Shown: one piece after another, positions 1-19,465 of the stretch
How the letters are laid out: each line of letters opens with the position of its first letter
Position numbering within the stretch: position 1 is the first letter of the stretch
Origin: a virus
Length of the DNA: 23,188 nt
IMG/VR virus record: IMGVR_UViG_3300027771_000105
Coordinates: 1-23,188 of that record
Direction: 5' to 3' (one strand)
Made by a program: the position numbers and the translations under genes
Notes under the pieces: model-generated
The model's database searches: none
Told to the model about the DNA's origin: nothing
The model's input: the letters and a program-made list of their open reading frames with translations, nothing else

Positions 1-58
1 GTGCCATAGTTTTGGCTTCGTCTAAACTCTCAATAATATACTCGTTAAACTCTATCAT
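1..58 (-). CDS. Partial phage gene, N-terminus only; capsid-targeting-like leader
   Basis: Only the first 19 codons are inside the window; the gene continues past position 1. The visible N-terminus is MIEFNEYIIESLDEAKTMA. Residues 1-11 match the shape of the T4 internal-head-protein targeting peptide as I remember it from IPIII (MKTYQEFIAE then A): a hydrophobic/aromatic stretch followed by I-x-E and a small residue. In T4 the prohead protease cuts after the Glu. A TATAAATA late-promoter core lies about 40 bp upstream, which fits a late head-associated protein. The two upstream neighbours have similar leaders. The function of the body of the protein cannot be seen. Confidence 0.6.
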   Translation of the reverse strand, partial: MIEFNEYIIESLDEAKTMA

Positions 59-97
59 GAGTACTTAATCCCATTTAATTTATTGTGGTGTTAGTAG

Positions 98-105
98 TAT
101 TTATA
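98..105 (-). promoter_or_regulatory. T4-like late promoter core (TATAAATA)
   Basis: TATAAATA on the minus strand, about 40 bp upstream of the start of the partial gene at 1-58 and in the gap after the 411-aa gene. It is identical to the T4 late-promoter core, which in T4 is read by host polymerase with gp55/gp33. Several other copies lie in front of minus-strand genes in this window. Confidence 0.6.
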
Positions 106-112
106 CGTACTA

Positions 113-1348
113 TTATGTTGAACTTTCCCAACCCTTTATGATTGAAGGATCGAAATTATTCTTTGAGAACTCCATTCTATCTACCAATTTAACGGCAGAA
201 CCTGTTAGATGATCAATCGCAACAAATCCTTCTGGGGATGTTACTTTAAATCCATCTGCAGTCTTAACAAATGTTGATATGCCACCAACCTCTGCTAGCT
301 TTTTGATTAACATTAACTTTGCTTCTACAATGTAGTTCTGTAGATCGAATATTAGTTTAAGATTAGCTTTATTGGATGTTGAGAAGAATGCAAGTATAGC
401 ATCACGTTTTACTGTCTGTGATGTCTTACCTTTCTCTGATTTACGCTTATCGATTTCTTTCTGGAAACGAGCGTTAACCCATACAATTAGTTCTGCTACG
501 TGCTTTGTTGTATTAGTGATACGTTTGCCGTTACGAACTTTAGTATTGTTGAATGTGTTGAGTAGGAGGTTTAATTCGTTGTTGCTCTCAATCTCTTTAA
601 GAGTTCCAGCGGCAATCTTTTGGAATACTTTACCGGCATTAGATAAATGCGAGGTTAATAGCTTTGTTTCTTTATTAGTGAATGTAGCAAGTCCTGACAT
701 ATCAGGCAGATCAGCAGAGATGCTCCATACAGAAGGTACTGTCTTTAGCTTTGATACGTCCACACCAAATGATGCTGACATAGCTTCTAATGAACTACCC
801 GTATAAGTTGTATGCCAAACCACACCAATATTAGCTTTCTTTAATGTGGCTGCTAGCTTTGATTCAGCTGGAACAGCATAGGCGATAGTGTTAGGATGCA
901 TTGTAATGTATTTCTTACCGTCAATAACAGACTTCTTTAGGTCGCCCTTAGTATACATGATATCACCTTGAATGACACCTTTAATTCCTAACTTAGGGAA
1001 TTCTTTTAATGCCATCTTCAGCTTCTCGCCTAGACCAGGACCATGGTTCTCGTCTACGTCAGCATCGGTATAATTTAGCTTTGGATTCTTATTGAATATG
1101 GATTTAGATCCTACAAAGAACTTTCCATTCTCTGGATTGATGCCAGCAAATACTGCAGGAGCACCATCCCATTTAACAGTAACATCAGTCTTAGCTTTAG
1201 TATGACCAGCTAACATATCTCGTAATGAACGCAATGCAAGGATTGCTTCACGAGCTCCTTTCACACCACCATCAAGCACAAGATCCTCAATATGAGTCAT
1301 ATGAGTATTCTTTGCTTCTTGTATTAAGTGTTCGCTCATCGATATCAT
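113..1348 (-). CDS. DUF6267-like phage protein with nucleotidyltransferase/ligase motifs
   Basis: 411 aa, resembling the conserved T4-like phage family I know as DUF6267. It carries what look like the motifs of the ATP-dependent ligase/nucleotidyltransferase fold. Motif I is KWDGAP at residues 59-64 (K-x-D-G, nucleotidyl-lysine candidate K59). A motif III-like QGDIMY follows near 127-132. Motif IV EGFV lies near 373-376 and motif V AVKLVDR has its Lys near 387. About 240 residues separate the middle from the C-terminal motifs, longer than in a minimal ligase. The N-terminus MISMSEHLIQE/A resembles a T4-type capsid-targeting leader with a prohead-protease site. RBS AAAGGAA lies 5-6 nt before the ATG; M4 is an alternative start. 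The gene overlaps the upstream one at the stop/start junction and probably shares its late promoter. Ligase-like activity and packaging are inferences from motifs. Confidence 0.7.
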   Translation of the reverse strand: MISMSEHLIQEAKNTHMTHIEDLVLDGGVKGAREAILALRSLRDMLAGHTKAKTDVTVKWDGAPAVFAGINPENGKFFVGSKSIFNKNPKLNYTDADVDENHGPGLGEKLKMALKEFPKLGIKGVIQGDIMYTKGDLKKSVIDGKKYITMHPNTIAYAVPAESKLAATLKKANIGVVWHTTYTGSSLEAMSASFGVDVSKLKTVPSVWSISADLPDMSGLATFTNKETKLLTSHLSNAGKVFQKIAAGTLKEIESNNELNLLLNTFNNTKVRNGKRITNTTKHVAELIVWVNARFQKEIDKRKSEKGKTSQTVKRDAILAFFSTSNKANLKLIFDLQNYIVEAKLMLIKKLAEVGGISTFVKTADGFKVTSPEGFVAIDHLTGSAVKLVDRMEFSKNNFDPSIIKGWESST

Positions 1349-2346
1349 TATATTTCCTTTAACTTACGTCTTGTATTCATATACGCAACAGGATAGATTC
1401 CTGCTCTGATGTTCTTTACTTCAACACCCTTAGGCGACATTACTTTACGTCCAGATCTAAATGTAGCTCCGAACACTGCAGTAAACTTACCTATCTTGGC
1501 CCACTTAACATCACCATTAATGTGAATGCTCTCTGAGAAGTCTAAAGTATACTTCCCTTTCTTGCCAATTAGCAACGGATTTCCTTGTCCAATACAATGA
1601 CAATTATCTCTTGCAAATGCACCACCATATCCTGGTCCGTACACAGATGCGTTAATTAGCCTAGGATCTTTGATAACTCTGTAGTATGCATCGCCAGACT
1701 TTGGCTTATCAGTCTTATATACAGCAGCTAGATCATTAACGAATGCTTCAATCTCTTTGTGCTTTATACCTGACTTGATGGAGATACCACCATACTGACT
1801 GAAGCCTTTAGCGCCACCTTCTTTCTTATGAGAGATGAAACCTACTTCTTTGCCACTACTATTGATCAATGCAATGTCTGCTTTAGGATCGCCTTTGATG
1901 TGATCTGATGAAGCAGTTACGACATCTGCAACAGTAAACTTTCCAATCTTAACTGAGATGCCTTTGTTGCCATTAGCCATTACTGCTTTTCTGATATAAC
2001 CATCAAGGTCACTTGTAGCAAGTATCTCGGCATCCATTGCTTTGAATCCAGAAGGCTTTCTTACATGCTTAATGTGGATGTAACCGATAGATGTATGTAA
2101 TGCTGGATTACCATCGATGTCATACACTTTCTTAGAAAGTAGTCTGAATGTAGTACCAGCTTGTGTAACAGAAGTTTGGATACCATTCTGATCATATACA
2201 GGAACGTCTTTCTTTTTGTTCTCTATAGAATAATCTATGGTTAATGCTTTAGGATTATCGATAACATATTTCTTGATGTTCGGTGTGCCATTGGTAGACT
2301 TACCTACTAACGTTGCCTCCGAGATGTACCCTATAAATGTCTGCAT
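1348..2346 (-). CDS. Phage protein with PD-(D/E)xK nuclease-like core and capsid-targeting-like leader
   Basis: 332 aa. The N-terminus MQTFIGYISE/A matches the T4 IPIII capsid-targeting peptide almost position by position (aromatic at 4, aromatic-Ile-small-Glu at 7-10, Ala at 11). The central region has KADIAL (D157), a short hydrophobic strand and GFISHK (K174), followed by GFSQYGG. This pattern recurs in phage proteins I recall as restriction-endonuclease-like, and D-x16-x-K fits a PD-(D/E)xK core, although Ser replaces the usual acidic residue before x-K. It is directly followed by the ligase-like gene (stop and start overlap) and preceded by TATAAATA, so the pair looks like a late operon. 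Nuclease activity is a hypothesis; the family assignment is by eye. Confidence 0.55.
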   Translation of the reverse strand: MQTFIGYISEATLVGKSTNGTPNIKKYVIDNPKALTIDYSIENKKKDVPVYDQNGIQTSVTQAGTTFRLLSKKVYDIDGNPALHTSIGYIHIKHVRKPSGFKAMDAEILATSDLDGYIRKAVMANGNKGISVKIGKFTVADVVTASSDHIKGDPKADIALINSSGKEVGFISHKKEGGAKGFSQYGGISIKSGIKHKEIEAFVNDLAAVYKTDKPKSGDAYYRVIKDPRLINASVYGPGYGGAFARDNCHCIGQGNPLLIGKKGKYTLDFSESIHINGDVKWAKIGKFTAVFGATFRSGRKVMSPKGVEVKNIRAGIYPVAYMNTRRKLKEI

Positions 2347-2374: not shown

Positions 2375-2382
2375 TATTTATA
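2375..2382 (-). promoter_or_regulatory. T4-like late promoter core (TATAAATA)
   Basis: TATAAATA on the minus strand about 30 bp before the ATG of the 332-aa gene, just downstream of the terminator of the preceding operon. The terminator-then-late-promoter order suggests that 2346 down to 113 is a separately controlled late operon. Confidence 0.65.
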
Positions 2383-4388: not shown

Positions 4389-4754
4389 TTACGGTTCGTA
4401 TGTAGCAAAAGAACCGTTCTCTCTGTCTTCCGATACGTCTATTATAACACGTCTACCTGGATAAGTCAACGATATTTGTTCAGCTAATTCATCTGATAAC
4501 ATCTCACATGACATATGATCAATTTGTAATACATCACCAGCATACAGAGCTTCACACCAACGTTTGAATTGAATAAACTCAACATCACGATCATCATGAA
4601 ATACTTCTAGCTGCACTTTGAAATGAAAGATATGTCTATGAGCATAACCTAGAAAGCTAACATCATCCAAACGTTCATTCAATGCTGCATCAGGATAACG
4701 ATGAATGCCTTCCTTCTGAAATGTGACCCATACAAAATTATCAACTTTATTCAT
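4389..4754 (-). CDS. Conserved T4-like phage protein, 121 aa
   Basis: Resembles a protein conserved in marine T4-like phages: starts near FVWVTFQKEGIH, then LGYAHRHIFHFKV, HDDRDVEFIQFKRW and a conserved tail IDVSEDRENGS. The HRHIFHF segment, the FIQFKRW segment and the SCEMLSDELAEQI helix loosely recall the T-fold layout of QueD (H-x-H strand, DF-xLK, PTSENLA helix), but no complete zinc or catalytic set can be pointed to, so no function is assigned. It overlaps the nuclease-like gene by one base. A sigma70 promoter for the next gene lies inside its 3' part. Confidence 0.7.
   Translation of the reverse strand: MNKVDNFVWVTFQKEGIHRYPDAALNERLDDVSFLGYAHRHIFHFKVQLEVFHDDRDVEFIQFKRWCEALYAGDVLQIDHMSCEMLSDELAEQISLTYPGRRVIIDVSEDRENGSFATYEP
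4441..4469 (-). promoter_or_regulatory. Sigma70 promoter inside the 121-aa gene
   Basis: Minus strand TTGACT - 17 bp - TATAAT (-35 at 4464-4469, -10 at 4441-4446). It points to the 68-aa gene at 4142-4348. The heptamer TAGACGT occurs twice around the -10, which could be a binding site. It has the same 17-bp architecture as the other early promoters here. Confidence 0.75.
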
Positions 4755-5212
4755 TATACATTTACCTTACTTAGTCGTCTCGATACGAATTTTGGTGAGT
4801 CGGCTGGAGTGATTATAATATAGTCACTACCACGAGCATTTGCTTTATACCAAGTCTTCATTTCTTCTGTTCCATACCATGCTACCCAACCAGTATCTGG
4901 ATTAACATGAAAGTAACGATCATTGATATGTTTAGGATTAAACAACCAATCTGCATAAACAAAGAATGAACCATACTTAGACATATTACTCTTAACATCA
5001 CATGAATATTTGTTATGCCATGTAGGAGCTTTAAAGTACAAGTCAATACCTTTAGTTTGTAATGACTTATCATCTTCACAATCTTCAACAGCCCAACCCC
5101 AGCTCTCGAAAACCTTCTTCATAAACAACTCACCAATACGACCTTTCTTGCCAGAAGCACCATACGCTTCTTCAGTTGTATCAGTCCACTCACTAGTTAA
5201 ACGTTCACTCAT
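4754..5212 (-). CDS. PD-(D/E)xK nuclease-like protein
   Basis: 152 aa with the full signature of a PD-(D/E)xK nuclease: a helix with Glu28 (KGRIGELFMKK), then GIDLYF with Asp57, a beta turn and CDVKSN with Asp72-x-Lys74. This order and spacing (E, D, D-x-K) is that of small endonucleases. An aromatic C-terminal half follows (WLFNPKH, TGWVAWYG). It may act on host DNA or on recombination or replication intermediates; the sequence does not say which. It sits in an early operon started at 5476-5504 and overlaps the 121-aa gene by one base. Confidence 0.65.
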   Translation of the reverse strand: MSERLTSEWTDTTEEAYGASGKKGRIGELFMKKVFESWGWAVEDCEDDKSLQTKGIDLYFKAPTWHNKYSCDVKSNMSKYGSFFVYADWLFNPKHINDRYFHVNPDTGWVAWYGTEEMKTWYKANARGSDYIIITPADSPKFVSRRLSKVNV

Positions 5213-5509: not shown

Positions 5510-6178
5510 TTAACGATTTATATTTGCCATTACTTCACGTCGAAGACCACTATTCTGATCTCCAAATTGTCCAAGTACACAAGCTGTGACAGTAGAAGAT
5601 GTAGTATCTTTAATGCCTCGTTGCGATACACAAGTATGAGCAGCTTCAATAACAACCATTACATCAGGAGAATCCGTGATGAATGCAATAGCATGTGCTA
5701 TCTGTTGATTGAGACGTTCTTGTACTTGAGGACGTTGTGCAAAGTATTGTGTGATACGATTCAACTTAGAAAGACCTAATACCTTCTTACCTGGAATGTA
5801 AGCGATATGAGCCTTACCGATAATCGGACGAAGGTGATGTTCACAATCAGAGAATAAAGTAATGTTCTTTTCTAGTACGAACTCTTCGCCATTACAGAAC
5901 TTGTTCTCTACTGTAGTACACTTCGGAAAGTTTTCATCTTGAAGACCACCAAAGATTTCATTGACATACATCTTAGCAACTCGAATTGGAGTCTCTTCTA
6001 ATGAATCATCAGTTAGATCTAATCCCAATACCTGAAGCATCTCTGCTGTAAGTTCTGCGATACGATCAATCTTTGTTTGAGAATCTACATATAATAGATC
6101 TGTGGTAGGAGTATTAATACCCATTTTAGTTAAATGAGCGTTTACCTTAATGCCTAAGGCATGGTTTGATTTTGACAT
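5510..6178 (-). CDS. folE: GTP cyclohydrolase I (FolE)
   Basis: 222 aa, full length. Converts GTP to dihydroneopterin triphosphate, the first step of both folate and 7-deazaguanine synthesis. Family blocks are complete: SDCEHHLRPI (C112, H114, H115, zinc site), GLSKLNRI, AQRPQVQERL and EAAHTCVSQRG (third zinc ligand C183). RBS AAAGGAA lies close to the ATG. The 5' leader at 6206-6272 is predicted to fold strongly. With queD and queE it provides CDG for base modification; it could also supply folate, although the phage's ThyX uses folate only as a methylene donor. Identification is firm; the DNA-modification role is inferred from neighbours. Confidence 0.95.
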   Translation of the reverse strand: MSKSNHALGIKVNAHLTKMGINTPTTDLLYVDSQTKIDRIAELTAEMLQVLGLDLTDDSLEETPIRVAKMYVNEIFGGLQDENFPKCTTVENKFCNGEEFVLEKNITLFSDCEHHLRPIIGKAHIAYIPGKKVLGLSKLNRITQYFAQRPQVQERLNQQIAHAIAFITDSPDVMVVIEAAHTCVSQRGIKDTTSSTVTACVLGQFGDQNSGLRREVMANINR

Positions 6179-6205
6179 TGTATTTCCTTTTCGGTATAGT
6201 TTATT

Positions 6206-6272
6206 GTCTGTAGAAAAGGGGCAGGACAGACGGCTCCGGCCAGGATAAAACTCTTACGAGTGCAACTCCTGG
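6206..6272 (-). promoter_or_regulatory. Structured RNA leader of folE (candidate cis-regulator)
   Basis: The roughly 110-nt gap before folE folds into two perfect stems on the minus strand. Hairpin 1 is CCAGGA/TCCTGG (6267-6272 with 6240-6245) enclosing ACTC-GTAA-GAGT, a GNRA-type tetraloop. Hairpin 2 is GTCTGT/ACAGAC (6226-6231 with 6206-6211) with a C-rich loop. CCGGAGCC links them. I cannot match it to the THF or preQ1 riboswitch consensus from memory, so it is reported as an unassigned structured leader. Confidence 0.45.
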
Positions 6273-6293
6273 ATCACCTTATTGCTTCTTTAA

Positions 6294-6491
6294 TTAGGTT
6301 CCGCGTTTTAAATGCTTATCCATCTTCTTCTTGTAGTCATCGATGAATTTCTGAGCTTTATCTAAACGTCCAGCCATCATATGTTTATGAGCTAATTTGT
6401 ATATAGGTTCATCCATATACTTTTTAAACTTCATTAGATCACGAGCTATTTGATCAGTCCGTGTAATTGATTCTTTGAATGATAACATCAT
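6294..6491 (-). CDS. Small basic hypothetical protein, 65 aa
   Basis: Lys-rich and helical (FKKYMDEPIYKL, KKKMDKHLKRG) with no recognised family. It starts with two consecutive Met codons; a TAGGA-type RBS is upstream. It is the first gene after the promoter at 6520-6548 and lies upstream of folE with the structured leader between them, so the two are probably co-transcribed. Confidence 0.65.
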   Translation of the reverse strand: MMLSFKESITRTDQIARDLMKFKKYMDEPIYKLAHKHMMAGRLDKAQKFIDDYKKKMDKHLKRGT

Positions 6492-6519
6492 GGTTTAGTT
6501 CCTAGTTATATATGTATCT

Positions 6520-6548
6520 ATTATCCCTTATAGTAACATTAATGTCAA
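6520..6548 (-). promoter_or_regulatory. Sigma70 promoter with flanking inverted repeat
   Basis: Minus strand TTGACA - 17 bp - GATAAT (-35 at 6543-6548, -10 at 6520-6525). An inverted repeat TCCCTTAT/ATAAGGGA brackets it, one arm just upstream of the -35 and the other overlapping the -10, as an operator would. A TATAAATA late core lies at 6570-6577. It drives the 65-aa gene and folE. Confidence 0.75.
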
Positions 6549-6569
6549 CAGATAAGGGACTATTAGTTC

Positions 6570-6577
6570 TATTTATA
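6570..6577 (-). promoter_or_regulatory. T4-like late promoter core (TATAAATA)
   Basis: TATAAATA directly after the queE stop and just upstream of the sigma70 promoter for the 65-aa gene and folE; another possible early/late pair. Being AT-rich, a single copy could be chance. Confidence 0.4.
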
Positions 6578-6578
6578 A

Positions 6579-7520
6579 CTATGTACCAATTGCGTTTCCA
6601 AACAGATAACAATGCAATCTACCAGAGACATTATAGCCTCGATCGAATGCCATCTTAGCAACAGTTCCAGCAGACTCTTCTTGTTCCTCAAGAGTAGCTC
6701 CTACTGGCATGATATACACAGGCCATGTAACACCAGCTTTTCTAAACTGACTAATAACACTATCTAACTCATCCCACTGCTCTTGCTTAGAACCCATAAC
6801 GAATTTAAGTTGCCCTGTTGGCTTCTTCCATTCCTTATTAGCGATTCCTGCTACATGTTCATACTCTGCTACAATTTCAGGTTTGATTGCTTTCTTGTTC
6901 TTTTCGCCTGCCACAGTCCATAACTTAGGACTCACAGAGAACATAATAGGAGATCGATAGATTCCTTTATTTGCAACAAACTTCTTGAACTCTTCGATCA
7001 ATGGAGTAGTACCATTAGTCTCGAATGTAACACCAGAAGGAATATTGTAACTATCATCCTTAAACTGTTGATAGATCTCAATGAAAGCCTTCTGTGAATT
7101 CTTCAGAAGTGGCTCACCACCCGTGAAACACATATGAGCAATCTGATTAGATACAGGATGCTTGAACCTACCTAATGGATTAAATTCATTCTTAATAGAA
7201 TCTTTAATACCTTGATATATCTCAGCAGACGTTTGATTAGTCATCAAGTGCTTATACTTCTTAGCCCATGTATAACTTGAATCACATCCCTTATCCCAAA
7301 CAGGTAGATCTTCTACTAGCTTGATCGAAGATGGATCAAAGTCTTCATAAGGTAATTCGTATGTAGATGGATCGGTAGGATTATCCTGACCGAAACCATC
7401 ACACTGAAGATTACAAAGATAAAAGCGAAGCCACATAGTCCATTGACCTGTGTACATTCCCTCACCCTGGATAGAGTTAAAGATTTCGCTATAATGATAT
7501 TTCTTAACTTTATCAGTCAT
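6579..7520 (-). CDS. queE: 7-carboxy-7-deazaguanine synthase (QueE), radical SAM
   Basis: 313 aa from the ATG at 7518-7520, which follows the queD stop by one base; longer reading would overlap queD. QueE turns 6-carboxytetrahydropterin into CDG by radical SAM chemistry. Seen: SEIFNSIQGEG (canonical QueE start), LCNLQC (C36, C40), GCDSSYTW (C79), CFTGGEPLL (SAM site) and TFETNGT. The third cluster cysteine is displaced by an insertion, giving CX3CX38C instead of CX3CX2C; the conserved CDSSYTW that normally follows the third Cys is intact after the insertion. I recall the same architecture in cyanophage QueE. It needs a 4Fe-4S cluster, relevant to the phage iscU/iscA. Confidence 0.9.
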   Translation of the reverse strand: MTDKVKKYHYSEIFNSIQGEGMYTGQWTMWLRFYLCNLQCDGFGQDNPTDPSTYELPYEDFDPSSIKLVEDLPVWDKGCDSSYTWAKKYKHLMTNQTSAEIYQGIKDSIKNEFNPLGRFKHPVSNQIAHMCFTGGEPLLKNSQKAFIEIYQQFKDDSYNIPSGVTFETNGTTPLIEEFKKFVANKGIYRSPIMFSVSPKLWTVAGEKNKKAIKPEIVAEYEHVAGIANKEWKKPTGQLKFVMGSKQEQWDELDSVISQFRKAGVTWPVYIMPVGATLEEQEESAGTVAKMAFDRGYNVSGRLHCYLFGNAIGT

Positions 7521-7521
7521 A

Positions 7522-7974
7522 TTAATCACGCTCATATATAGCTGAGTTTGAATCGTGCTCTGCACATACTACACGTACACAATAACAACGTCCATCAGTC
7601 ATTTCACTTACAAGTTTATCTGCAAAGTTAAATGCATGCTCTGCAAACTTCTCTGCACCAACACCATCCATCACAACAACTTCAGCTAGATGAAGATCTT
7701 CAAGTTCTAAAAACTTATATAAGAATGGATCGTTCTTATCAATTGCTGTCTTATGATCAAAGTTATCTTCGAGCCATTTCTTCAGAGGTTTTAACCCACC
7801 AAAGTCTACTGCCCAATTCTTATTGTCTAATTCTGTACAACCGAATGTAAATGTAAATGCTAAACTGTATCCGTGTAATAGATGACAGTGTGAATGGTCT
7901 GCATTAGGTTGACGAAATACAGCTGATAAGCCAATATTATGTCCGTAATGTTTTGTTGATAGATATCGTGCCAT
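7522..7974 (-). CDS. queD: 6-carboxytetrahydropterin synthase (QueD)
   Basis: 150 aa from an ATG with a GGAG RBS; an upstream in-frame TTG is rejected. Converts dihydroneopterin triphosphate to 6-carboxytetrahydropterin. T-fold blocks are visible: an N-terminal FRQPNADHSH strand, CHLLHGYSL (catalytic Cys plus zinc region), WAVDFGGLKPLKKW, FDHKTAID (catalytic His) and AEHDSNSAIYE (Glu). The usual HGH zinc pair reads HGY, so one of the three expected histidine ligands is missing or supplied from elsewhere. It is followed immediately by queE. A TATAAATA core lies 25 bp upstream. Confidence 0.88.
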   Translation of the reverse strand: MARYLSTKHYGHNIGLSAVFRQPNADHSHCHLLHGYSLAFTFTFGCTELDNKNWAVDFGGLKPLKKWLEDNFDHKTAIDKNDPFLYKFLELEDLHLAEVVVMDGVGAEKFAEHAFNFADKLVSEMTDGRCYCVRVVCAEHDSNSAIYERD

Positions 7975-7997
7975 TATATACTCCAATAATAAAAATG

Positions 7998-10750: not shown

Positions 10751-10951
10751 TTAAAGACGCTTAGTAACGTCTTTGATCCTGATTGCATCCAATACACCAT
10801 CGCCTGGATCAACCAATAGCTCATCCATGTCACGAGGATTAACACCCTTGATGACACCCATGAACTTCTTACCTTTGTACTTATACTCGATCTTCTGACC
10901 ACGTTGAAATGGACCTCGAGCTGCTTCAATTAGATCTTTAAAGTTTTGCAA
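10751..10951 (-). CDS. Small hypothetical protein, 66 aa
   Basis: Starts MQNFKDLIEAARGPFQRGQK. A basic strand-rich centre (KIEYKYKGKKFMGVIKGV) resembles a small SH3/KOW-like barrel, and the tail is acidic then basic. The N-terminus (MQNFKDLIEAA) is somewhat like the capsid-leader pattern but lacks the aromatic-I-x-E spacing, so I do not claim it. An AGGAGTT RBS precedes the ATG. Confidence 0.65.
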   Translation of the reverse strand: MQNFKDLIEAARGPFQRGQKIEYKYKGKKFMGVIKGVNPRDMDELLVDPGDGVLDAIRIKDVTKRL

Positions 10952-11608: not shown

Positions 11609-11683
11609 TGGCGTCCCATCAAGGAGTCGAACCCTGATCTATGGAGTAGAAATCCACTGCACTATCCATTATGCTAATGGGAC
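11609..11683 (-). tRNA. tRNA-Arg(TCT)
   Basis: 75 nt including an encoded CCA. Acceptor GTCCCAT pairs with the 3' strand ending GGGAC; anticodon stem GTGGA/TCCAT with loop TTTCTAC gives anticodon TCT (reads AGA). T arm AGGGTTCGACTCCT. It begins two bases after the iscA stop, so it is probably co-transcribed and processed from the same RNA. AGA is a rare codon in many enteric-type hosts and this tRNA is common in phages. Confidence 0.9.
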
Positions 11684-11684
11684 A

Positions 11685-12008
11685 TTAAACTGTGAAACTC
11701 TCACCACATCCACATTCGTCTTTCACGTTAGGATTGACAAACTTGAATCCTTCGTTAAGACCTTCTCGTGTATAGTCTAACTGAGTACCGTCAAGGTAAG
11801 TTAGACTCTTGGCGTCGATTACTATGTTAATATTGTTGGATACAAATGTCATATCATCGGATTGGACTTCGTCAACAAACTCTACTACGTATGCCATACC
11901 AGAACAGCCTGTAGTACGAACTCCGAGACGAACACCATATCCATGTCCTCTATTGCTTAGAAAGGCTGATACACGCTCTGAGGCAGCCTCTGACATTGAT
12001 ATAGACAT
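11685..12008 (-). CDS. iscA: IscA-type A-type Fe-S carrier protein
   Basis: 107 aa from the ATG at 12006-12008, two bases after the iscU stop region. The three cluster cysteines are in place: TTGCSGMAY (C35) and CGCGESF (C99, C101). The length of 107 and cysteine numbering are those of E. coli IscA as I remember them, so the gene is intact and not degraded. It accepts or delivers Fe-S clusters to client enzymes, working after the IscU scaffold. The order iscU-iscA is that of bacterial isc operons, but iscS, hscBA and fdx are absent here, so it must rely on the host for sulfur and chaperones. Clients could be the phage radical SAM enzymes. Confidence 0.9.
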
Positions 12009-12009
12009 G

Positions 12010-12387
12010 CTAGTGCTTTGACTTATAATCTGCAATAGCAGACTTAATAGCATCTTCTGCTAGTACAGAACAATGGATCTTAACTGGAGGTAGTGCAAGT
12101 TCTTCTGCAATATTATGATTACGGATCTCTCCTGCCTTATCCAATGTCATCCCTTTCATCCATTCAGTAACCAATGAACTAGATGCAATAGCTGATCCAC
12201 AACCATAAGTCTTGAACATAGCGTCTTCAATAACACCTTCATCGTTAACTTTAATTTGTAATCGCATTACATCACCACATGCCGGAGCGCCTACAAGACC
12301 AGTACCTACACTATCGTCATCCGGATCCATCAAACCTACGTTACGTGGATTCTCATAATGATCTAATACCTGTTCGCTATAAGCCAT
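12010..12387 (-). CDS. iscU: IscU Fe-S cluster assembly scaffold
   Basis: 125 aa from the ATG at 12385-12387 with a GGAG RBS. Builds Fe-S clusters with sulfur from the cysteine desulfurase IscS. All key residues are visible: APACGD (C37, D39), [11 protein letters not shown] (C63) and [10 protein letters not shown] (LPPVK 99-103 and C106). LPPVK is the site bound by the HscA chaperone, so the protein appears able to use the host's release machinery. Numbering matches E. coli IscU. It is translationally close to iscA. Phage-borne iscU is unusual to my knowledge. The tRNA-like element at 12412-12474 lies just upstream. Confidence 0.93.
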
Positions 12388-12411
12388 AAGTTGCACTCCA
12401 GTGTAAATAGC

Positions 12412-12474
12412 TCGCGGGCGTACGGAATTGAACCGCTACTCGTTCGAACAATACCCACCTGGGAATAGCCCGCG
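12412..12474 (-). tRNA. Short tRNA-like element, no anticodon arm found
   Basis: 63 nt. A perfect 7-bp acceptor-like stem CGCGGGC/GCCCGCG encloses TA at positions 8-9, a CCC/GGG hairpin, the palindrome GTTCGAAC and a T-arm-like GGTTCAATTCC. No 5-bp anticodon stem with a U33 loop can be drawn. It lies between the 106-aa gene (stop abuts it) and iscU. It may be a degenerate tRNA or an RNA processing signal. Confidence 0.4.
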
Positions 12475-12795
12475 TTAAAGGTGACACATCAATACTCTTC
12501 CAGATTTTATTCGTTCTTGTGTAACTACTGGAATATTTATTGTTGCTGTACTCAACATAGCAAACATCGAATCTTGAGTTTTATCAAATTCTAATTTTGA
12601 ACCATCAAATTCTGATTTAACGAACCAAGTTAAAAAATCTGAATTCGATTCAAATTCTAAAATATCTTCATCGTTATCATTAATAAAAACCACATGTCGT
12701 TTTATACTATATTTTTTATTTATATAGTGAATCAAACACGTAGGATTCATCACTTCATCTTTACTATATAGTTTTTCAAATGTCTCAGATTTCAT
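12475..12795 (-). CDS. Hypothetical protein, 106 aa
   Basis: Acidic, aromatic, soluble (NDNDEDILEFESNSDFLTWF). No family. It is noticeably more AT-rich than the genes around it. Its stop codon abuts the tRNA-like element, and a GAGGGA RBS precedes the start. A TATAAATA inside it (12717-12724) is probably chance. Confidence 0.6.
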   Translation of the reverse strand: MKSETFEKLYSKDEVMNPTCLIHYINKKYSIKRHVVFINDNDEDILEFESNSDFLTWFVKSEFDGSKLEFDKTQDSMFAMLSTATINIPVVTQERIKSGRVLMCHL

Positions 12796-12844
12796 AATTC
12801 ATAATCCCTCAAACTAGTTAAATATTGTGCGCATACTATGAAAA

Positions 12845-12922
12845 TGGTGCAGAGTGTAGGAGTCGAACCTGCGACCTCTCGCATCCAAGGCGAGGACTCT
12901 GGCCAAACTGAGCTACACACAG
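12845..12922 (-). tRNA. Degenerate tRNA-Pro(TGG)-like
   Basis: 78 nt with encoded CCA. Anticodon stem CTCGC/GCGAG is perfect, with loop CTTGGAT giving TGG. The 5' half (CTGTGTGTAGCTCAGT) is nearly the same as in the tRNA-Pro at 13441-13518, but the 3' half does not match it. The acceptor pairs poorly whichever register is tried, and the T stem GCAGG/CCTAC has a C-A mismatch. It may be a recombinant or decaying copy. Confidence 0.5.
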
Positions 12923-12928
12923 ATAAAA

Positions 12929-13065
12929 CGGTTTACTAGTGGGAGTCGAACCCTTGCGTTGCCTGTAACGCGATACACCAAGCCTTCCTTAATGTATCCG
13001 AGGAGTTGAACCTCAATATTTAACGTCAGTCCCATGGAAACTTTGACGGCAACCAGCATAGTAAA
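12929..13065 (-). ncRNA. Long tRNA-like structured RNA
   Basis: About 134 nt with acceptor-like ends TTTACTA/TAGTAAA (13059-13065 with 12932-12938) and a T-arm-like hairpin GGGTTCGACTCCC next to the 3' end. Inside: GTTGCC/GGCAAC (13048-13053 with 12958-12963), a GAGG-TTCAACT-CCTC hairpin (13000-13014) and GATACA/TGTATC (12993-12998 with 12972-12977). The layout (acceptor, inner long helix, hairpins, T arm) superficially recalls tmRNA, but it is far too short and shows no tag frame. It could be several eroded tRNAs. Confidence 0.35.
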
Positions 13066-13071
13066 TTTGAT

Positions 13072-13144
13072 TCATCTTGGTAGGATTTGAACCCTACATT
13101 TCCGACCCTACAAGTCGGTGTCCGCAACATTAGACGACAAGATA
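13072..13144 (-). tRNA. tRNA-Tyr(GTA), short variable loop
   Basis: 73 nt, no encoded CCA. Acceptor TATCTTG/CAAGATG (first pair T-G), D stem GTCT/GGAC, anticodon stem CCGAC/GTCGG with loop TTGTAGG giving GTA. T stem GTAGG/CCTAC has an eight-base loop. Bacterial tRNA-Tyr normally has a long variable arm; here only AAAT separates the arms. GUA anticodons are natural queuosine sites, noteworthy next to phage QueD/QueE. Confidence 0.7.
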
Positions 13145-13274
13145 AAATTGTAAAAAAGGTTCTATGTCTTTCCATAGTGTCAGATTTAAGATGGCCTTGT
13201 TAAGAAGTATAATCAATACGACTTAAATTTTTTCGCAGTACAATTAAGTAGGGTACGAGGCGCTGTTATTAAAA

Positions 13275-13347
13275 TGGTACTCTTGGAATGAATCGAACAT
13301 TCGCAACTCGGTTTCGTAGACCAAGTGCCAGTTCCACTGGCAAGAGT
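13275..13347 (-). tRNA. tRNA-Arg(ACG)
   Basis: 73 nt with encoded CCA. Acceptor ACTCTTG/CAAGAGT and T arm GAATG-TTCGATT-CATTC are perfect. Anticodon stem TTGGT/ACCGA with loop CTACGAA gives ACG, which would need A-to-I editing by host TadA to read the CGN codons. The D arm is less regular. Confidence 0.75.
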
Positions 13348-13354
13348 ATAAAAG

Positions 13355-13433
13355 TGGTAGAACGTGTTGGATTTGAACCAACGATCTTCACCGTATGAAG
13401 GTGCTGCATTAAGCCGCGCTATGCTAACGTTCT
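13355..13433 (-). tRNA. tRNA-Met(CAT)
   Basis: 79 nt with encoded CCA. Acceptor AGAACGT/ACGTTCT, D stem GCAT/ATGC, T arm GTTGG-TTCAAAT-CCAAC. Anticodon loop TTCATAC gives CAT; the first pair of that stem is G-A. It lacks initiator features, so it is elongator Met or, if lysidinylated, Ile(AUA). Confidence 0.8.
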
Positions 13434-13440
13434 ATAAAAT

Positions 13441-13518
13441 TGGTCTGCGTGGTAGGATTTGAACCTACGACATCTCCGTTCCAAACGGAGGACTCTAACC
13501 AGACTGAGCTACACACAG
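13441..13518 (-). tRNA. tRNA-Pro(TGG)
   Basis: 78 nt with encoded CCA. Acceptor CTGTGTG/CACGCAG (one G-U), T stem GTAGG/CCTAC, anticodon stem CTCCG/CGGAG with loop TTTGGAA giving TGG (reads CCA and other CCN). Position 37 is A, whereas Pro tRNAs normally have G37. Confidence 0.85.
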
Positions 13519-13524
13519 ATAAAA

Positions 13525-13598
13525 TGGTACTCAGTGAAGGTAACGATCCTTCGTCTATCGCTTATCGAGCGAGGGCTCTACCTTTGAGCTAACCGAGC
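13525..13598 (-). tRNA. Atypical tRNA-Ile(GAT)-like
   Basis: 74 nt with encoded CCA. Acceptor GCTCGGT/ACTGAGT (two G-U), D arm GCTC/GAGC, T stem GAAGG/CCTTC. The anticodon loop TCGATAA gives GAT but has C33 in place of the invariant U33. The T loop is ATCGTTA, lacking the usual T54 and A58. First tRNA after the array promoter. Possibly not charged, or functioning outside translation. Confidence 0.6.
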
Positions 13599-14967: not shown

Positions 14968-15374
14968 CACTTATTACAATTATTAACACACAATATCGCA
15001 GGATTATCGCTATTCCATCCTTCAGTCCAGATGTAACTGTGGAATACTTCGTGCGCTAGAATTTCTTCAATAGAATGATGTTCTAAACTATTCCAATCAG
15101 GATCTTCATTTATTATAGTCATCATTCTAGCATCATTCAATAATTCTGCTGATTCACCATTTACATTATGAAAATCTTCTTCACTAGGATCTTCATCGGG
15201 ACCCAATTCATCTGCCCTCATCATATGTCGTCTATCCCATGCATTTGCAAAAAAACAACAAGGCCACACTCTTCCTTCTGGTGTTACTTCCCATTTTCTT
15301 ACAGGGAGGTTAGTAAATTCATTTAGAGCTTCGAATGATTGACATTCAATATTATATTTACCCTTGGATGTCAT
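14964..15374 (-). CDS. Stand-alone SPASM-like Fe-S domain protein
   Basis: 136 aa. EVTPEGRVWPCCFFANAWD (C39, C40) followed much later by CVNNCNKC (C129, C133, C136) is the cysteine layout of a SPASM/twitch domain, which binds auxiliary Fe-S clusters and usually forms the C-terminus of a radical SAM enzyme. There is no CX3CX2C core here. It overlaps the 3' end of the radical SAM core gene by 17 nt (ATG before that gene's stop). The two may form a two-subunit enzyme or be one protein joined by frameshifting. Also notable is NIECQSF near the N-terminus (C11). Confidence 0.7.
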   Translation of the reverse strand: MTSKGKYNIECQSFEALNEFTNLPVRKWEVTPEGRVWPCCFFANAWDRRHMMRADELGPDEDPSEEDFHNVNGESAELLNDARMMTIINEDPDWNSLEHHSIEEILAHEVFHSYIWTEGWNSDNPAILCVNNCNKC

Positions 15375-16026
15375 CTGGACTCACTCCTATTAATAATTTT
15401 TCTGCATCCAATCTAGAATCTGGTGTTATTAATCCAAAATCTCTATTATTGAAGCAAAAAATAATTTTAATTCCAATCTCTTTTGCCATTTGACGTGCTA
15501 GCGGTATTTCATGCCAATTCCACTCAAATATTAAATATCGCCATTCACCATCCCCACCTGATTGAGTGTGAGTTTTCATATTTTCAAAAGCTTTATTAAA
15601 ATCAACACCTTCTCTATACTTCCAATTGGTGTCATGTGTTGCTCCATCAATTGCCCAATTTATAAAGACATCGTTTGTGTATTTTTCTGCTATCGTCTTA
15701 TACCAGTTTGCATTCCTAAGCGCACCATTTGTTGATATTAATATTGATGGTGCATATTCTAATGCAGTTTCTATAAATTTGTCAACTTGTGGATGCATCA
15801 TGGGATCGCCCAACTCGCCACAAAACTCAATTATATTATACTTTATATTAGGAGATGCTGCAAGAGTTCGTTTAAACACATCTAGATTCATATGCTTGAG
15901 TTCTAACCAATCTTCTTTTTCACCAGTATATTGATTCGTTCTAGCACAACTTCTACATCGTGCTTGACAATATGTGGTTAATGCAAAATCTATCTCAGTT
16001 AAATATTCTATATTAGTTGATGTCAT
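15358..16026 (-). CDS. Radical SAM core protein
   Basis: 222 aa. YCQARCRSCART (C20, C24, C27) is the CX3CX2C cluster motif; FCGELGDPMMHP takes the place of the GGEP SAM-binding strand; ISTNGALRN is the usual next strand and FINWAIDGAT fits the IDG turn. It ends right where a SPASM domain would start, and that domain is in the next gene. Related multi-domain enzymes modify peptides or sugars, but no substrate can be named. Needs a 4Fe-4S cluster. Confidence 0.8.
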   Translation of the reverse strand: MTSTNIEYLTEIDFALTTYCQARCRSCARTNQYTGEKEDWLELKHMNLDVFKRTLAASPNIKYNIIEFCGELGDPMMHPQVDKFIETALEYAPSILISTNGALRNANWYKTIAEKYTNDVFINWAIDGATHDTNWKYREGVDFNKAFENMKTHTQSGGDGEWRYLIFEWNWHEIPLARQMAKEIGIKIIFCFNNRDFGLITPDSRLDAEKLLIGVSPDDIQG

Positions 16027-16034
16027 TTATTTCC

Positions 16035-17348
16035 TTACTTGTCAAGTTCTAAATCTGATTTAATTCGGCTAAATTCAGGTGCTACTGACATCACATCATG
16101 TCCGCGATGCTTATCATAGTTTTCTGTTACTTGAACATAATCCCTCATAAATCCACGATCATACTTGGTTTCTGGATCTTCGCCAAAATGCAATGCTTCC
16201 ATTAACGGACGTGAATAATCTTCATAATGAGGACTATCTTTTATCTCTTCTAAAAATTCTAGTATCTGTGATTTCTGTTCATCACGCAACCATTGGGGAC
16301 TATGCGCCATTGAGTAATATTCAGGTTCTACCAATTGATTCGTACTCATGCCGATGGTACGGTCATTAGTCTGTTGATAATCGTGCATAAATCTCCAGAA
16401 TGGAACCAAATGCAACGCGTTTGTTACTTGATTCACCGTAGTGACACGTACACGAATGTTCTTTCCTTCTGATGTATTTGAATACTTTACTAACTTATCA
16501 AAATTTTCCCATACTGAATCCCACTGCGATGGCGGACGTAAATAATCATTCATATCACCCATGCCCTCTAATGAGCAATTTACAATAACTAGCTTAAACT
16601 GACTGAATTGTTTTAACCATTTATCTTGCATATTGGTGATGTTCGTGTAGAACGATAATGTAATATTTTTTGCGTATCCAGATTCAGTTGCTCTGTCTAG
16701 CAACTTGAACATATCAGATACAACAGTTGGTTCGCCGCCAATCATTTTAATCGTCTGTGCATATGGCAGCATCTTATCAAAACTATCCCAATCGATGCCA
16801 GGCTGAATTATCGCTTTCTTTTTATTAGCAATATTATTGTCCCAATCATATCTATCTAAGTTAGGAGATTTGGGTCCCAAATCTGTTGCAATCATATTGG
16901 CACGCTCAACACTTACTAAATGCGATGCTTCTTTGTTACACATCTGACATTGTAGATTACATAAATTACCTAATCTAAAATCAAATTGTAGAGGCTGTTC
17001 TATATTCCAATCATTTGCACTTGCCAATGCTACAATATCTGGAACCTGATCTTTCCATGAATAGTTTTCCCATTGACGAGAACTTATAATATCGTTACGT
17101 TCTAATCTTTTACATTCTATACACTCTGGTAGCCATTCGCCCGTAGCCATACGCTCACGAACACTACGAATGTAATCATGATTCCATGTTCCATCTATGC
17201 CTAGTTCTTCTTGATTAATAAGTTCACTAGGTTCCTTTGCCATACAACATAATCGATAACGACCCCCATTGAATGTACTATATTGTACAAATGGCAGTGC
17301 GCAAAACCCATTATCTGTGTCATTGTTCTTTATATCGTCATCGTTCAT
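16035..17348 (-). CDS. Twitch-type radical SAM protein (437 aa)
   Basis: N-terminal auxiliary region with FCALPF (C16), YRLCCMA (C34, C35) and LPECIECK (C76, C79), then a radical SAM core with GNLCNLQCQMCN (C130, C134, C137), MIGGEPTVV (SAM site, 204-207) and NCSLEGMGDMNDYLR. The auxiliary Cys cluster comes before the core, the reverse of classical SPASM enzymes; this matches the twitch-domain family found in phages and bacteria. Substrate unknown. It starts at the stop of the glycosyltransferase gene (one-base overlap), so the two are coupled. A paralogue is at 19458-20891. Confidence 0.8.
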   Translation of the reverse strand: MNDDDIKNNDTDNGFCALPFVQYSTFNGGRYRLCCMAKEPSELINQEELGIDGTWNHDYIRSVRERMATGEWLPECIECKRLERNDIISSRQWENYSWKDQVPDIVALASANDWNIEQPLQFDFRLGNLCNLQCQMCNKEASHLVSVERANMIATDLGPKSPNLDRYDWDNNIANKKKAIIQPGIDWDSFDKMLPYAQTIKMIGGEPTVVSDMFKLLDRATESGYAKNITLSFYTNITNMQDKWLKQFSQFKLVIVNCSLEGMGDMNDYLRPPSQWDSVWENFDKLVKYSNTSEGKNIRVRVTTVNQVTNALHLVPFWRFMHDYQQTNDRTIGMSTNQLVEPEYYSMAHSPQWLRDEQKSQILEFLEEIKDSPHYEDYSRPLMEALHFGEDPETKYDRGFMRDYVQVTENYDKHRGHDVMSVAPEFSRIKSDLELDK

Positions 17349-18913
17349 TACTTGATTCCTATAATCATAAATCTATTATATAACTGTGTGCTTTGTTCAC
17401 CACTAAATAATACTTCTTTCATTTGGTATTTAGTCATGGCGGTAGACAGATCTTTAACGCAGTTCATATTATCTGAAAAATCATTTGTCTGTATTACTAT
17501 CAAAGTATCATCAGTATCTGGTATATTGTCAAACCATGTATCATCCATATGTGCGCAACTAGTGTTTATCAATAAATCAGGCAGAGATGATTCATCCCAT
17601 ATTATATCAGATACATCATTGGTTTGTGCACTGAATAATTCGTCAGATTCTGCTATGTGATTTAACAAACGAGCATACTCTGTTGTCTTATGATCTATAT
17701 CCACACTAAGTATAGATTCAATTGTTTCATAATTATTAATTAACATAGATGAATGGGTGCATATGTTACCACCCAATATTACAACATCAGATGGTTCCAA
17801 CGTTGTCTTACTTAATTCTTCAATCATCCAAGACTTGCCTATCATCGAATCACGTGTGATAAAATCTACTAGATCAATATTACCATGCGATGGGTCAGAC
17901 AATTTCATCAATCCATATATAAAATTATCATTAATATTGCGATTAATATATTCCAATACTTGATGATCTGGTATTACATAATCATCTATTAATAATGATT
18001 GAAGTATTACATTAACATAAAGTTCAGTGTCTTCATTCTTACCTATATTTACTTCTTCTAAAATAAGATCGCGAATGCCCCAGTTATCACCGTATACCAG
18101 TGCATTCTTTAGTTTAATAAATACTGCATAGTATGATTCTACGGATGACAATGTAAAATATTCTTCTAGTCCATGAAACCATGATAAATGAATTGGGTGA
18201 TGCTGATCTATTGTATGCACTGATGACTTGTCAAATGTAGTGGTTAACCAAGTGAAATCGTTTATTTTATCTAGAGTTTTCTTATCATTTTTGTAAAATG
18301 CACCGAACTCTCGTCCTTGTCTAGCACCCATTATAGCATATTTTCCATGGGCACTACTATCTCCACGAGTACACCATACATCTAATCTGTATCGATCATC
18401 CATATCTGGAGTGGGGTTAGATGCTAGTTTTGTACACTCACGGAATGCACTGCGCCATGTACTGAATTCATCTGTATTGAATTCGGTTATATTAGATATT
18501 TGTTGCTTCACTACTAATGGTGCATCTATTGTTGTGGTCATATCTATCTGAAATGATTTCGCATTCAATAACTTATGTCTAGGGAATAACTTTACTCCAC
18601 CATAACCATAAATCAATCCATTGACTGCATTAACACTCTGCCATACGAATACACAACTTGATTCATTCACACCCGGATACGATTCTTTAATGATATCAGG
18701 TGTGAATGAGAAATTAAAATGCTCAGATAACACCGCGTCAGCATCTACTACATAAAAATTATCAGTAGTTGCCAATTTTGCTGCTGCTTGATGTGCCTCT
18801 AAAATCCCGACGACATTATCTACCCTCTTCGCATTGGGTGCTAATTTCTGTATTCTTTTGAAATTTTGATCAGCGTTTGGTTCACCATACGCCAACATGA
18901 CAACATCTAACAT
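17348..18913 (-). CDS. Glycosyltransferase-like protein fused to a methyltransferase-like domain
   Basis: 521 aa. The N-terminal domain resembles a GT-A glycosyltransferase common in marine phages: an AHQAAAKLATTDNFYVVDADA block with Asp-Ala-Asp at 57-59 (nucleotide-sugar/metal site) and GLIYGYGGVKLFPRH, WRSAFRECTKLAS. From about residue 375, DVVILGGNICTHSSMLI and ILSVDIDHKTTEYARLL look like motifs I and II of a class I SAM methyltransferase (Rossmann fold), with DLLINTSCAHMDD as the next strand. The gene may add and methylate a sugar in one protein. Acceptor unknown. The nucleosidase gene ends 3 nt before it starts, so SAH made here could be removed at once. Confidence 0.75.
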   Translation of the reverse strand: MLDVVMLAYGEPNADQNFKRIQKLAPNAKRVDNVVGILEAHQAAAKLATTDNFYVVDADAVLSEHFNFSFTPDIIKESYPGVNESSCVFVWQSVNAVNGLIYGYGGVKLFPRHKLLNAKSFQIDMTTTIDAPLVVKQQISNITEFNTDEFSTWRSAFRECTKLASNPTPDMDDRYRLDVWCTRGDSSAHGKYAIMGARQGREFGAFYKNDKKTLDKINDFTWLTTTFDKSSVHTIDQHHPIHLSWFHGLEEYFTLSSVESYYAVFIKLKNALVYGDNWGIRDLILEEVNIGKNEDTELYVNVILQSLLIDDYVIPDHQVLEYINRNINDNFIYGLMKLSDPSHGNIDLVDFITRDSMIGKSWMIEELSKTTLEPSDVVILGGNICTHSSMLINNYETIESILSVDIDHKTTEYARLLNHIAESDELFSAQTNDVSDIIWDESSLPDLLINTSCAHMDDTWFDNIPDTDDTLIVIQTNDFSDNMNCVKDLSTAMTKYQMKEVLFSGEQSTQLYNRFMIIGIK

Positions 18914-18916
18914 TAT

Positions 18917-19465
18917 TTACTCGCTACGATTTGATAATATTTTCATGAATTCATTTGCACCATCGGAGCAATTCTGTTCCCAGTCTGTAGTTGAATCTTC
19001 ATCTGCAAAGTCTGATACGTACTTATAGCAATCAAAGATAACTTTATACTTTTTGCATACCATTGCAATACCATATGCTTCCATATCAACCAGTGTACTA
19101 CTCAATGGTGGCTGACTTGTGACAAAGTTATCACCACTAGTCAATGAAACACCACTAAGTTTTAGATCTATCCATAATTCACCAGTGAACGGAGTCTGTC
19201 CTACTTTCCAACCTAAAGGCGATGCATCCATATCTCGTTGACCTACCGTACTAACTTCATGTACACCTAGTGCTAAATCAGGATCTAAACTGCCCGCAGT
19301 ACCCATATTGATAATGGTCTGAGGATTGTACTTTAATACTGCTTCCATTGCTGCCATTGTCGCTTTGATCTTACCAACACCTGTTACTATTTTAACATAA
19401 GGCGCTGGTAATTCATAGGGCAATTCCACTTCTAATGCAACTAATACTGGTATTACATCAGTCAC
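18917..19465 (-). CDS. MTA/SAH nucleosidase-like protein
   Basis: 182 aa, shorter than E. coli Pfs (232). PNP_UDP fold blocks: VLVALEVEL (catalytic Glu near 12), TGVGKIKATMAA, INMGTAGSL, TSGDNFV, LVDMEAYGIA (Glu129, ribose contact) and YVSDFADE (Asp152, purine protonation). It would cleave SAH, 5'-methylthioadenosine and 5'-deoxyadenosine. The last is the by-product of radical SAM enzymes and inhibits them; SAH comes from methyltransferases. It sits between radical SAM genes and next to the methyltransferase fusion, which fits a clean-up role. The shortening is between the middle strands and the MEA block. A phosphorylase is less likely because of size. Confidence 0.8.
   Translation of the reverse strand: MTDVIPVLVALEVELPYELPAPYVKIVTGVGKIKATMAAMEAVLKYNPQTIINMGTAGSLDPDLALGVHEVSTVGQRDMDASPLGWKVGQTPFTGELWIDLKLSGVSLTSGDNFVTSQPPLSSTLVDMEAYGIAMVCKKYKVIFDCYKYVSDFADEDSTTDWEQNCSDGANEFMKILSNRSE

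Follow-up and report, generated by a model that had tools for sequence, protein, structure and literature searches.

T4-type capsid-targeting leaders on a predicted ligase-fold DUF6267 protein and its neighbours in a T4-like, Kyanoviridae-related phage

Why would three consecutive late genes of a phage, two of them enzyme-like, begin with the kind of short leader that sends the internal proteins of phage T4 into the prohead? The question is raised by one end of the IMG/VR virus record IMGVR_UViG_3300027771_000105, whose 23,188 bases (hereafter the window) come from a marine T4-like phage related to Kyanoviridae and form a 23-kb fragment of it. All genes of the leader cassette lie on the minus strand: a nuclease-like protein of 332 residues (1348..2346), a 411-residue protein of the DUF6267 family (113..1348) and the 5' end of a gene for a 120-residue basic protein (1..58, 19 codons). 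The nearest annotated relatives for these genes are Methylophilales phage Melnitz and Phage C48C1, both T4-like marine phages filed under Kyanoviridae. A contig whose DUF6267 protein is 100% identical to that of the window (L003) overlaps the window and runs beyond its end. It holds the whole gene of the basic protein (4608-4970 of the contig), followed by a 277-residue protein, MSMFKSFNEYLTEASSGVVFTFGRFNPPTVGHEK, and a 143-residue protein, MKTFKQMIEAADK. It thereby contributes a cytidylyltransferase/NMNAT-like gene (hereafter NTase) and one more leader gene, which brings the leader-type genes near each other to at least five.

From the leaders, their modular junction, the ligase fold and residues, the gene order and the late promoters observed here, we infer that these proteins are probably enzymes that are made late, packaged in the head, trimmed by a protease and injected, an interpretation that extends to the catalysis and substrate of these exact proteins.

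Capsid-targeting leaders

Ten residues of T4 IPIII suffice as a leader; targeting depends most on positions 4 and 7, and processing on positions 8 and 10 (PMC9026906). The leaders MQTFIGYISE/A of the nuclease-like protein (residues 1-10; 2317..2346, minus strand; the slash marks the predicted cut) and MIEFNEYIIE/S of the basic protein fit this fixed spacing, with F4, Y7, I8 and E10. The leader MISMSEHLIQE/A of the DUF6267 protein (residues 1-11; 1316..1348, minus strand) is a looser match, with the Glu shifted by one to position 11 and the aromatic residue missing at -6. Its orthologues include proteins with the canonical leaders MKSFKEYIAEA, MLRFKQYLIEA, MKTFKNHLLEA and MISFSNFLTEE. The claim of a preliminary description of this DNA that three consecutive genes carry T4-type leaders is thus borne out, by two exact matches and a looser one with canonical orthologues.

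The leader pattern was defined as Met-x2-[FYW]-x2-[FYHW]-[ILVM]-x-Glu plus a permissive P1' residue, at fixed spacing. The IMG/VR loci that surround DUF6267 or the nuclease have it at 46 of 683 open reading frame (ORF) starts and at none of 569 internal-ATG controls (Fisher P 5e-13). A chance origin of the leaders is ruled out by these controls. DUF6267 accounts for 14 of the 46 pattern-bearing ORFs and the remaining ones are other proteins, some of them mutually related; the leaders occur on unrelated proteins around this locus. A scan of T4 returned exactly ipII and ipIII, both starting MKTYQEFIAEA, which agrees with the IPIII start given in the preliminary description. The same scan found two ORFs in Melnitz, four in C48C1 and none in lambda, HTVC008M or P-HM2. 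Counted by hand, 40 of 43 DUF6267 loci have an N-terminal extension before the conserved block that ends in Glu or Glu-Ala (in one, L072, it passes through such a site); the extension is missing in two, and one could not be judged. Elsewhere in the window, a 66-residue protein with no Pfam match, MQNFKDLIEAARGPFQRG (10751-10951, minus strand), has a shortened leader-like start (MxxFxxxIEA).

The leader is a removable module, as judged by comparing protein starts in two unrelated families: leaderless homologues begin exactly at the predicted E/A cut. In the nuclease family, a leader block of ten residues is found in three homologues (MQTFIGYISE/ATLVGKSTNG, MIRFKRYLSE/ATLAGKSTNG and MRTFKNFLIE/APLSGNSTNG) and is missing in nine, which start M/ASLSGNSTNG or M/PSLSGNSTNG. 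In the DUF6267 family, MISMSEHLIQE/AKNTHMTHIED corresponds to M/SKNTHLEHLED in P-HM2 and MA/KNTHLEHLED in S-SZBM1. Residues 1-15 of the DUF6267 protein are disordered in its AlphaFold (AF2) model.

Protease sites and late promoters

A prohead protease of the gp21 type (PF03420) was found in 10 of 11 records searched, nine of these ten being phages with DUF6267. It was not found in the 23 kb of the window. By comparison with FLTE/A in T4, the capsid proteins of C48C1 and Melnitz have maturation-type sites at FLTE/T and FLSE/A, respectively, and the F-L-x-E form is common to these sites and the leaders.

The T4-type late promoter core TATAAATA lies ahead of the nuclease-like gene (2375..2382, minus strand, 28 nt from the start) and of the basic protein gene (98..105, minus strand, 39 nt from the start), confirming the two late cores noted earlier. 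The window has eight copies of TATAAATA, every one of them on the coding strand, of which six are located 12-39 nt ahead of a start; five at 15-50 nt from a start represent a significant enrichment in position (binomial P 3e-5). No copy precedes the DUF6267 gene, which overlaps the nuclease-like gene by one base, so the two are probably co-transcribed. The same core also precedes a nuclease homologue that is the first cassette gene in another locus (L082), the non-orthologous first cassette gene in Melnitz and the NTase gene of S-CREM2.

Virion proteins of related phages

The virion data used here are those in the accessible parts of the published cyanophage studies. Mass spectrometry identified T4-GC190, a putative cytidylyltransferase adjoining DUF6267 (there T4-GC71), in purified S-SM1 virions (PMC3037559), and the NMNAT/cytidylyltransferase in those of S-SCSM1 (PMC9602691), S-SZBM1 (PMC9146016) and S-CREM2 (PMC10665884). 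All four of these proteins have the leader: they start MKKFSAFLNEA (S-SM1), MKSFLQFLKEA (S-SCSM1), MRFRQFIIEA (S-SZBM1) and MKNFSSFLTEA (S-CREM2). The NTase of S-PM2 is a leaderless fusion behind DUF6267 and is listed among the proteins not detected in virions (PMC3037559).

DUF6267 homologues lacking the leader, which the preliminary description took as grounds for refutation, do occur in five cyanophages (P-HM2, S-PM2, S-SZBM1, S-SCSM1 and S-CREM2). The leaderless DUF6267 proteins of S-SZBM1, S-SCSM1 and S-CREM2 are likewise outside the accessible virion lists or unmarked there as virion proteins, which fits the leader as a packaging signal; we therefore reject the leaderless homologues as a refutation of packaging.

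In S-CREM2 the leader pattern occurs in 7 of 193 ORFs, and five of the seven are among the 50 virion proteins that could be matched to ORFs (P 0.013). This count admits Phe at position 8, a choice of ours that adds gp136; without it the figure is four of six, with P roughly 0.04 by our own estimate. The S-CREM2 virion proteins (OR473000; L180-L189 3837-5081 and 7704-12861) include an S-adenosylmethionine (SAM) hydrolase starting MKDFDSFLEEF, an APH/ChoK-like kinase starting VKRFDAFLTEE, the small gp13 starting MKDLHSFLTEQ and a Cas9-like protein in which RFASFMAEA begins at residue 18. The presence of these non-structural proteins in the particle may be explained by the leader, which is not mentioned in the accessible part of the source paper.

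A predicted ligase fold in DUF6267

The DUF6267 protein matches Pfam PF19782 (E 1e-108) and PHROG 455 (E 2.7e-103), both families of unknown function, and has relatives in at least 466 phage records. The ligase motifs KWDGAP, EGFV and VKLV read in it earlier are all present, and their key residues do not vary among the 35 sequences aligned. On the minus strand, these are K59, D61 and G62 of motif I (K59-W-D-G, 1163..1174), where K59 is the predicted adenylated lysine, the acidic D129 of motif III (962..964), E373, G374 and V376 of motif IV (E373-G-F-V, 221..232) and K387 of motif V (188..190). E373 and K387 are 14 residues apart. The spacing ranges from 12 to 14 in the family and is mostly 14; it equals that of E312 and K326 in the RNA ligase of Naegleria gruberi, residues that are given in the titles of mutant structures of that ligase. 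Between motifs III and IV lies a helical insertion of about 150 residues.

The AF2 model is confident (predicted local distance difference test (pLDDT) 87.2, predicted template modelling score (pTM) 0.84). VIA-align matched it best to the Naegleria RNA ligase (Z 8.7, root-mean-square deviation 3.7, 183 residues), then to T4 RNA ligase 2 (Rnl2; Z 7.7) and DNA ligases; rows 1-34 of the matches are all polynucleotide ligases, with Z from 8.7 to 6.1. Although Z alone is moderate, the fold, the invariant residues and the spacing agree, and the model therefore supports a ligase-type covalent nucleotidyltransferase fold and active site. Its likeliest task would be to seal ends of RNA or DNA as infection begins. 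A literature search of openly accessible main texts found no mention of DUF6267, and a ligase-fold, head-targeted enzyme of this family appears to be undescribed.

DUF6267 and NTase are covered by a single profile in PHROG 455 and fused in a 591-residue protein of S-PM2, so a functional link between the two is probable. DUF6267 is split over two ORFs in an older S-PM2 record (AJ630128; L086 3992-5771), whereas the structure library has the 591-residue fusion; a frameshift introduced in sequencing may account for the split. C48C1, Melnitz, HTVC008M, Stenotrophomonas phage DLP6 and Vibrio phage EniLVp02 have similar neighbourhoods, in which DUF6267 and NTase stand together with a nuclease-like gene and, in many cases, a small basic protein lies between.

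The nuclease-like protein

The nuclease-like protein belongs to phrog_13937 (E 1.5e-37), a family of unknown function. Its putative PD-(D/E)xK-like core, read from the motif KAD(x14)S-H-K, extends from K155 to K174 (1825..1884, minus strand) and is a variant in which Ser replaces Glu. K155, D157, S172 and K174 are invariant in the aligned homologues, distant ones included, so that the D-x16-K core pointed out previously (D157-K174) is conserved. A similar [TA]D...S-x-K motif is found in proteins beside DUF6267 that are unrelated in sequence to the nuclease-like protein, in Melnitz (TPKTDILIGNMRFSLK), HTVC008M (TPKTDFTIGNNKISLK), S-SM1 (EPKTDILFVKGGKKYKCSMK) and one further locus (L043; TPKTDVLIGDMRFSVK). 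In S-SCSM1, the accessible list counts a leaderless PADI...SLKK protein adjoining the NTase (S-SCSM1_90) among the virion proteins. Judging from these motifs, different families may occupy the nuclease slot in different phages. The S-CAM7 homologue of the nuclease-like protein was named a CviJI-type restriction enzyme by its depositor. Going by its motif, the most likely identity of the upstream protein is a PD-(D/E)xK-like nuclease.

Proposed mechanism and alternatives

The cassette would be a late operon of head cargo, transcribed from the TATAAATA promoters into precursors whose leaders of 10-11 residues would dock into the prohead core. A gp21-type protease would cleave after I/L-x-E, and the mature enzymes would remain associated with the DNA and pass into the host on infection. 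K59 of DUF6267 would accept adenosine monophosphate (AMP), allowing RNA or DNA ends to be sealed early in infection. The upstream protein would act as a PD-(D/E)xK-like nuclease, the NTase would be NMNAT-like, and the basic protein resembles the T4 internal proteins in charge. The idea of a nuclease/ligase pair in the head, from which this work started, is too narrow for a leader set of at least five genes. Its leader component is well supported by the modular junction, the occurrence on a variety of unrelated proteins, the gp21 protease of relatives, the like sites in capsid proteins and the mass spectrometry of leader-bearing NTase homologues in virions.

Several observations weigh against this mechanism. 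The leader of this phage's own DUF6267 protein is imperfect; many cyanophage DUF6267 proteins are leaderless, and the gene lies after replication genes (uvsX, gp41 and mazG) in some cyanophages. The virion data come from relatives and cover the homologue of the neighbouring NTase gene. Two proteins with perfect leaders, S-SCSM1_30 and S-SZBM1_191, are not reported in virions in the accessible lists, and the authors of the virion studies (PMC9602691 among them) allow for contamination by co-purification of such proteins. The leaderless homologues, this gene order, the two unreported proteins and possible co-purification would suit another reading: the leader would be a helix at the N-terminus that docks onto a different partner, and the proteins would stay in the cytoplasm and act late in infection, for instance in processing the genome or turning over host RNA, with co-purification accounting for their detection in virions of relatives. 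We consider this improbable: the junction falls exactly at a gp21-type site, in the F-L-x-E form of the relatives' capsid protein, the genes have late promoters, and the leader-bearing NTase was detected repeatedly in four separate virion studies, with other leader proteins detected in S-CREM2. S-SZBM1_191 (L213 812-1129) and S-SCSM1_30 (L212 616-936) represent a conserved protein of about 105 residues, MKSFKSFLSESVNISGDFNGNLY, encoded beside virion protein genes.

Two further alternatives concern the activities of the proteins. Foldseek found no match of the DUF6267 model in the PDB at E <= 0.001, the ligase match coming from a second aligner at moderate Z. No Pfam ligase family matched the protein, and a profile search of the PDB gave weak coiled-coil-like matches only and no ligase sequence. 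Together with the long helical insertion and the fused or adjoining NTase, this leaves some room, though we think it the less probable course, for a packaged DUF6267 protein that is no end-joining ligase. It could instead carry out another nucleotidyl transfer, either cap-like or dependent on nicotinamide adenine dinucleotide (NAD) with an NMNAT-like partner, or be a catalytically weak, DNA-binding core protein. The invariance of every tested ligase motif residue across 35 diverse sequences and the RNA and DNA ligases as nearest folds speak for end joining. The upstream protein is open to a similar degree of doubt, since its K-A-D...S-x-K motif could be coincidental in a structural or DNA-binding internal protein. 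Structure prediction, which yielded a confident ligase fold for DUF6267, gave a poor model for this protein (pLDDT 43.6) from which the alpha-beta-beta-beta-alpha-beta fold is not readable, leaving the nuclease assignment at the level of the motif. No Pfam family was matched above the cutoff, neither Pfam nor NCBIfam matched any of the nuclease-like proteins, and a PDB profile search returned no match. The assignment as a nuclease is favoured by the invariance of the motif in distant homologues, by its recurrence in non-homologous genes in the same place and by the depositor's name in S-CAM7.

Other features of the window

Three radical SAM proteins are encoded on the minus strand at 15358-16026 (below the Pfam cutoff), 16035-17348 and 19458-20891 (with a SPASM domain). 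Together with a 521-residue protein without a Pfam match, they form a run (15358-20891) that is a possible modification cluster, unusual in a phage. Two iron-sulphur (Fe-S) assembly genes, IscU/NifU_N-like (E 7.7e-51) and IscA-like of the Fe-S_biosyn family (E 6.9e-21), lie side by side at 11685-12396 (minus strand) and possibly serve the radical SAM enzymes. Consecutive GTP cyclohydrolase I-like, QueE-like (Fer4_12) and QueD-like (PTPS) genes at 5510-7986 (minus strand) suggest synthesis of 7-deazaguanine, perhaps for DNA modification. Five transfer RNA genes (Arg-tct, Pro-tgg twice, Met-cat and Ile-gat; 11609-13598, minus strand) bear on the idea of packaged RNA repair.

Relation to known systems and significance

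Packaging of enzymes in phage heads is already known, with Alt and other ADP-ribosyltransferases as established examples (PMC9503650); what is new are the members and the distribution of the tag. The cassette proteins resemble the T4 internal proteins in their short leader at the N-terminus, whose key positions coincide, and in an I/L-x-E site, late expression and a gp21-type protease (here in relatives). The T4 proteins, however, are small and basic, IPI being an inhibitor of a restriction enzyme, whereas those described here include enzyme-like proteins of 277-680 residues in an operon conserved across marine phages. Like T4 Alt, they would be head-packaged, processed and injected, but they belong to another enzyme class. 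DUF6267 shares with T4 RNA ligase 2 and the Naegleria RNA ligase the nucleotidyltransferase fold, the KxDG, EG and K motifs and the E-to-K spacing of 14; it differs in its long helical insertion, head leader and partner genes, and sequence similarity is undetectable. The jumbo-phage Rnl2-HNH fusions (PMC7824862) likewise pair a nuclease with an RNA-ligase-type enzyme; there the HNH nuclease is fused, whereas here a PD-(D/E)xK-like gene is separate, and the accessible part of that report describes no capsid-targeting leader. The NMNAT/cytidylyltransferase of cyanophage virions (T4-GC190) is of the same family as the NTase of this operon, with the leader present and four virion proteomes behind it. 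In their accessible parts, the papers on it do not link it to a leader, or to DUF6267 and nucleases as a set of cargo. Among openly accessible main texts on capsid-targeting sequences, we found no report linking such leaders to marine phage enzymes.

DUF6267, present in hundreds of phage genomes without an assigned function, can now be given a fold, a likely location and a set of predicted active-site residues. In the virion studies published so far, packaged enzymes could not be separated from contaminants, and a cleavable leader provides a testable sequence rule for doing so. As a tentative extension, a tag for loading proteins into the head might be general among marine T4-like phages and bring a modular set of enzymes into the host at time zero, as a pre-made layer of repair and counter-defence. 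Such a set could, equally tentatively, comprise the ligase-fold DUF6267, an NMNAT-like enzyme and exchangeable nucleases, and in some phages a SAM hydrolase, a kinase and a Cas9-like protein. If this is true, the T4 cargo tag would serve not just small basic proteins but also various enzymes of abundant marine phages.

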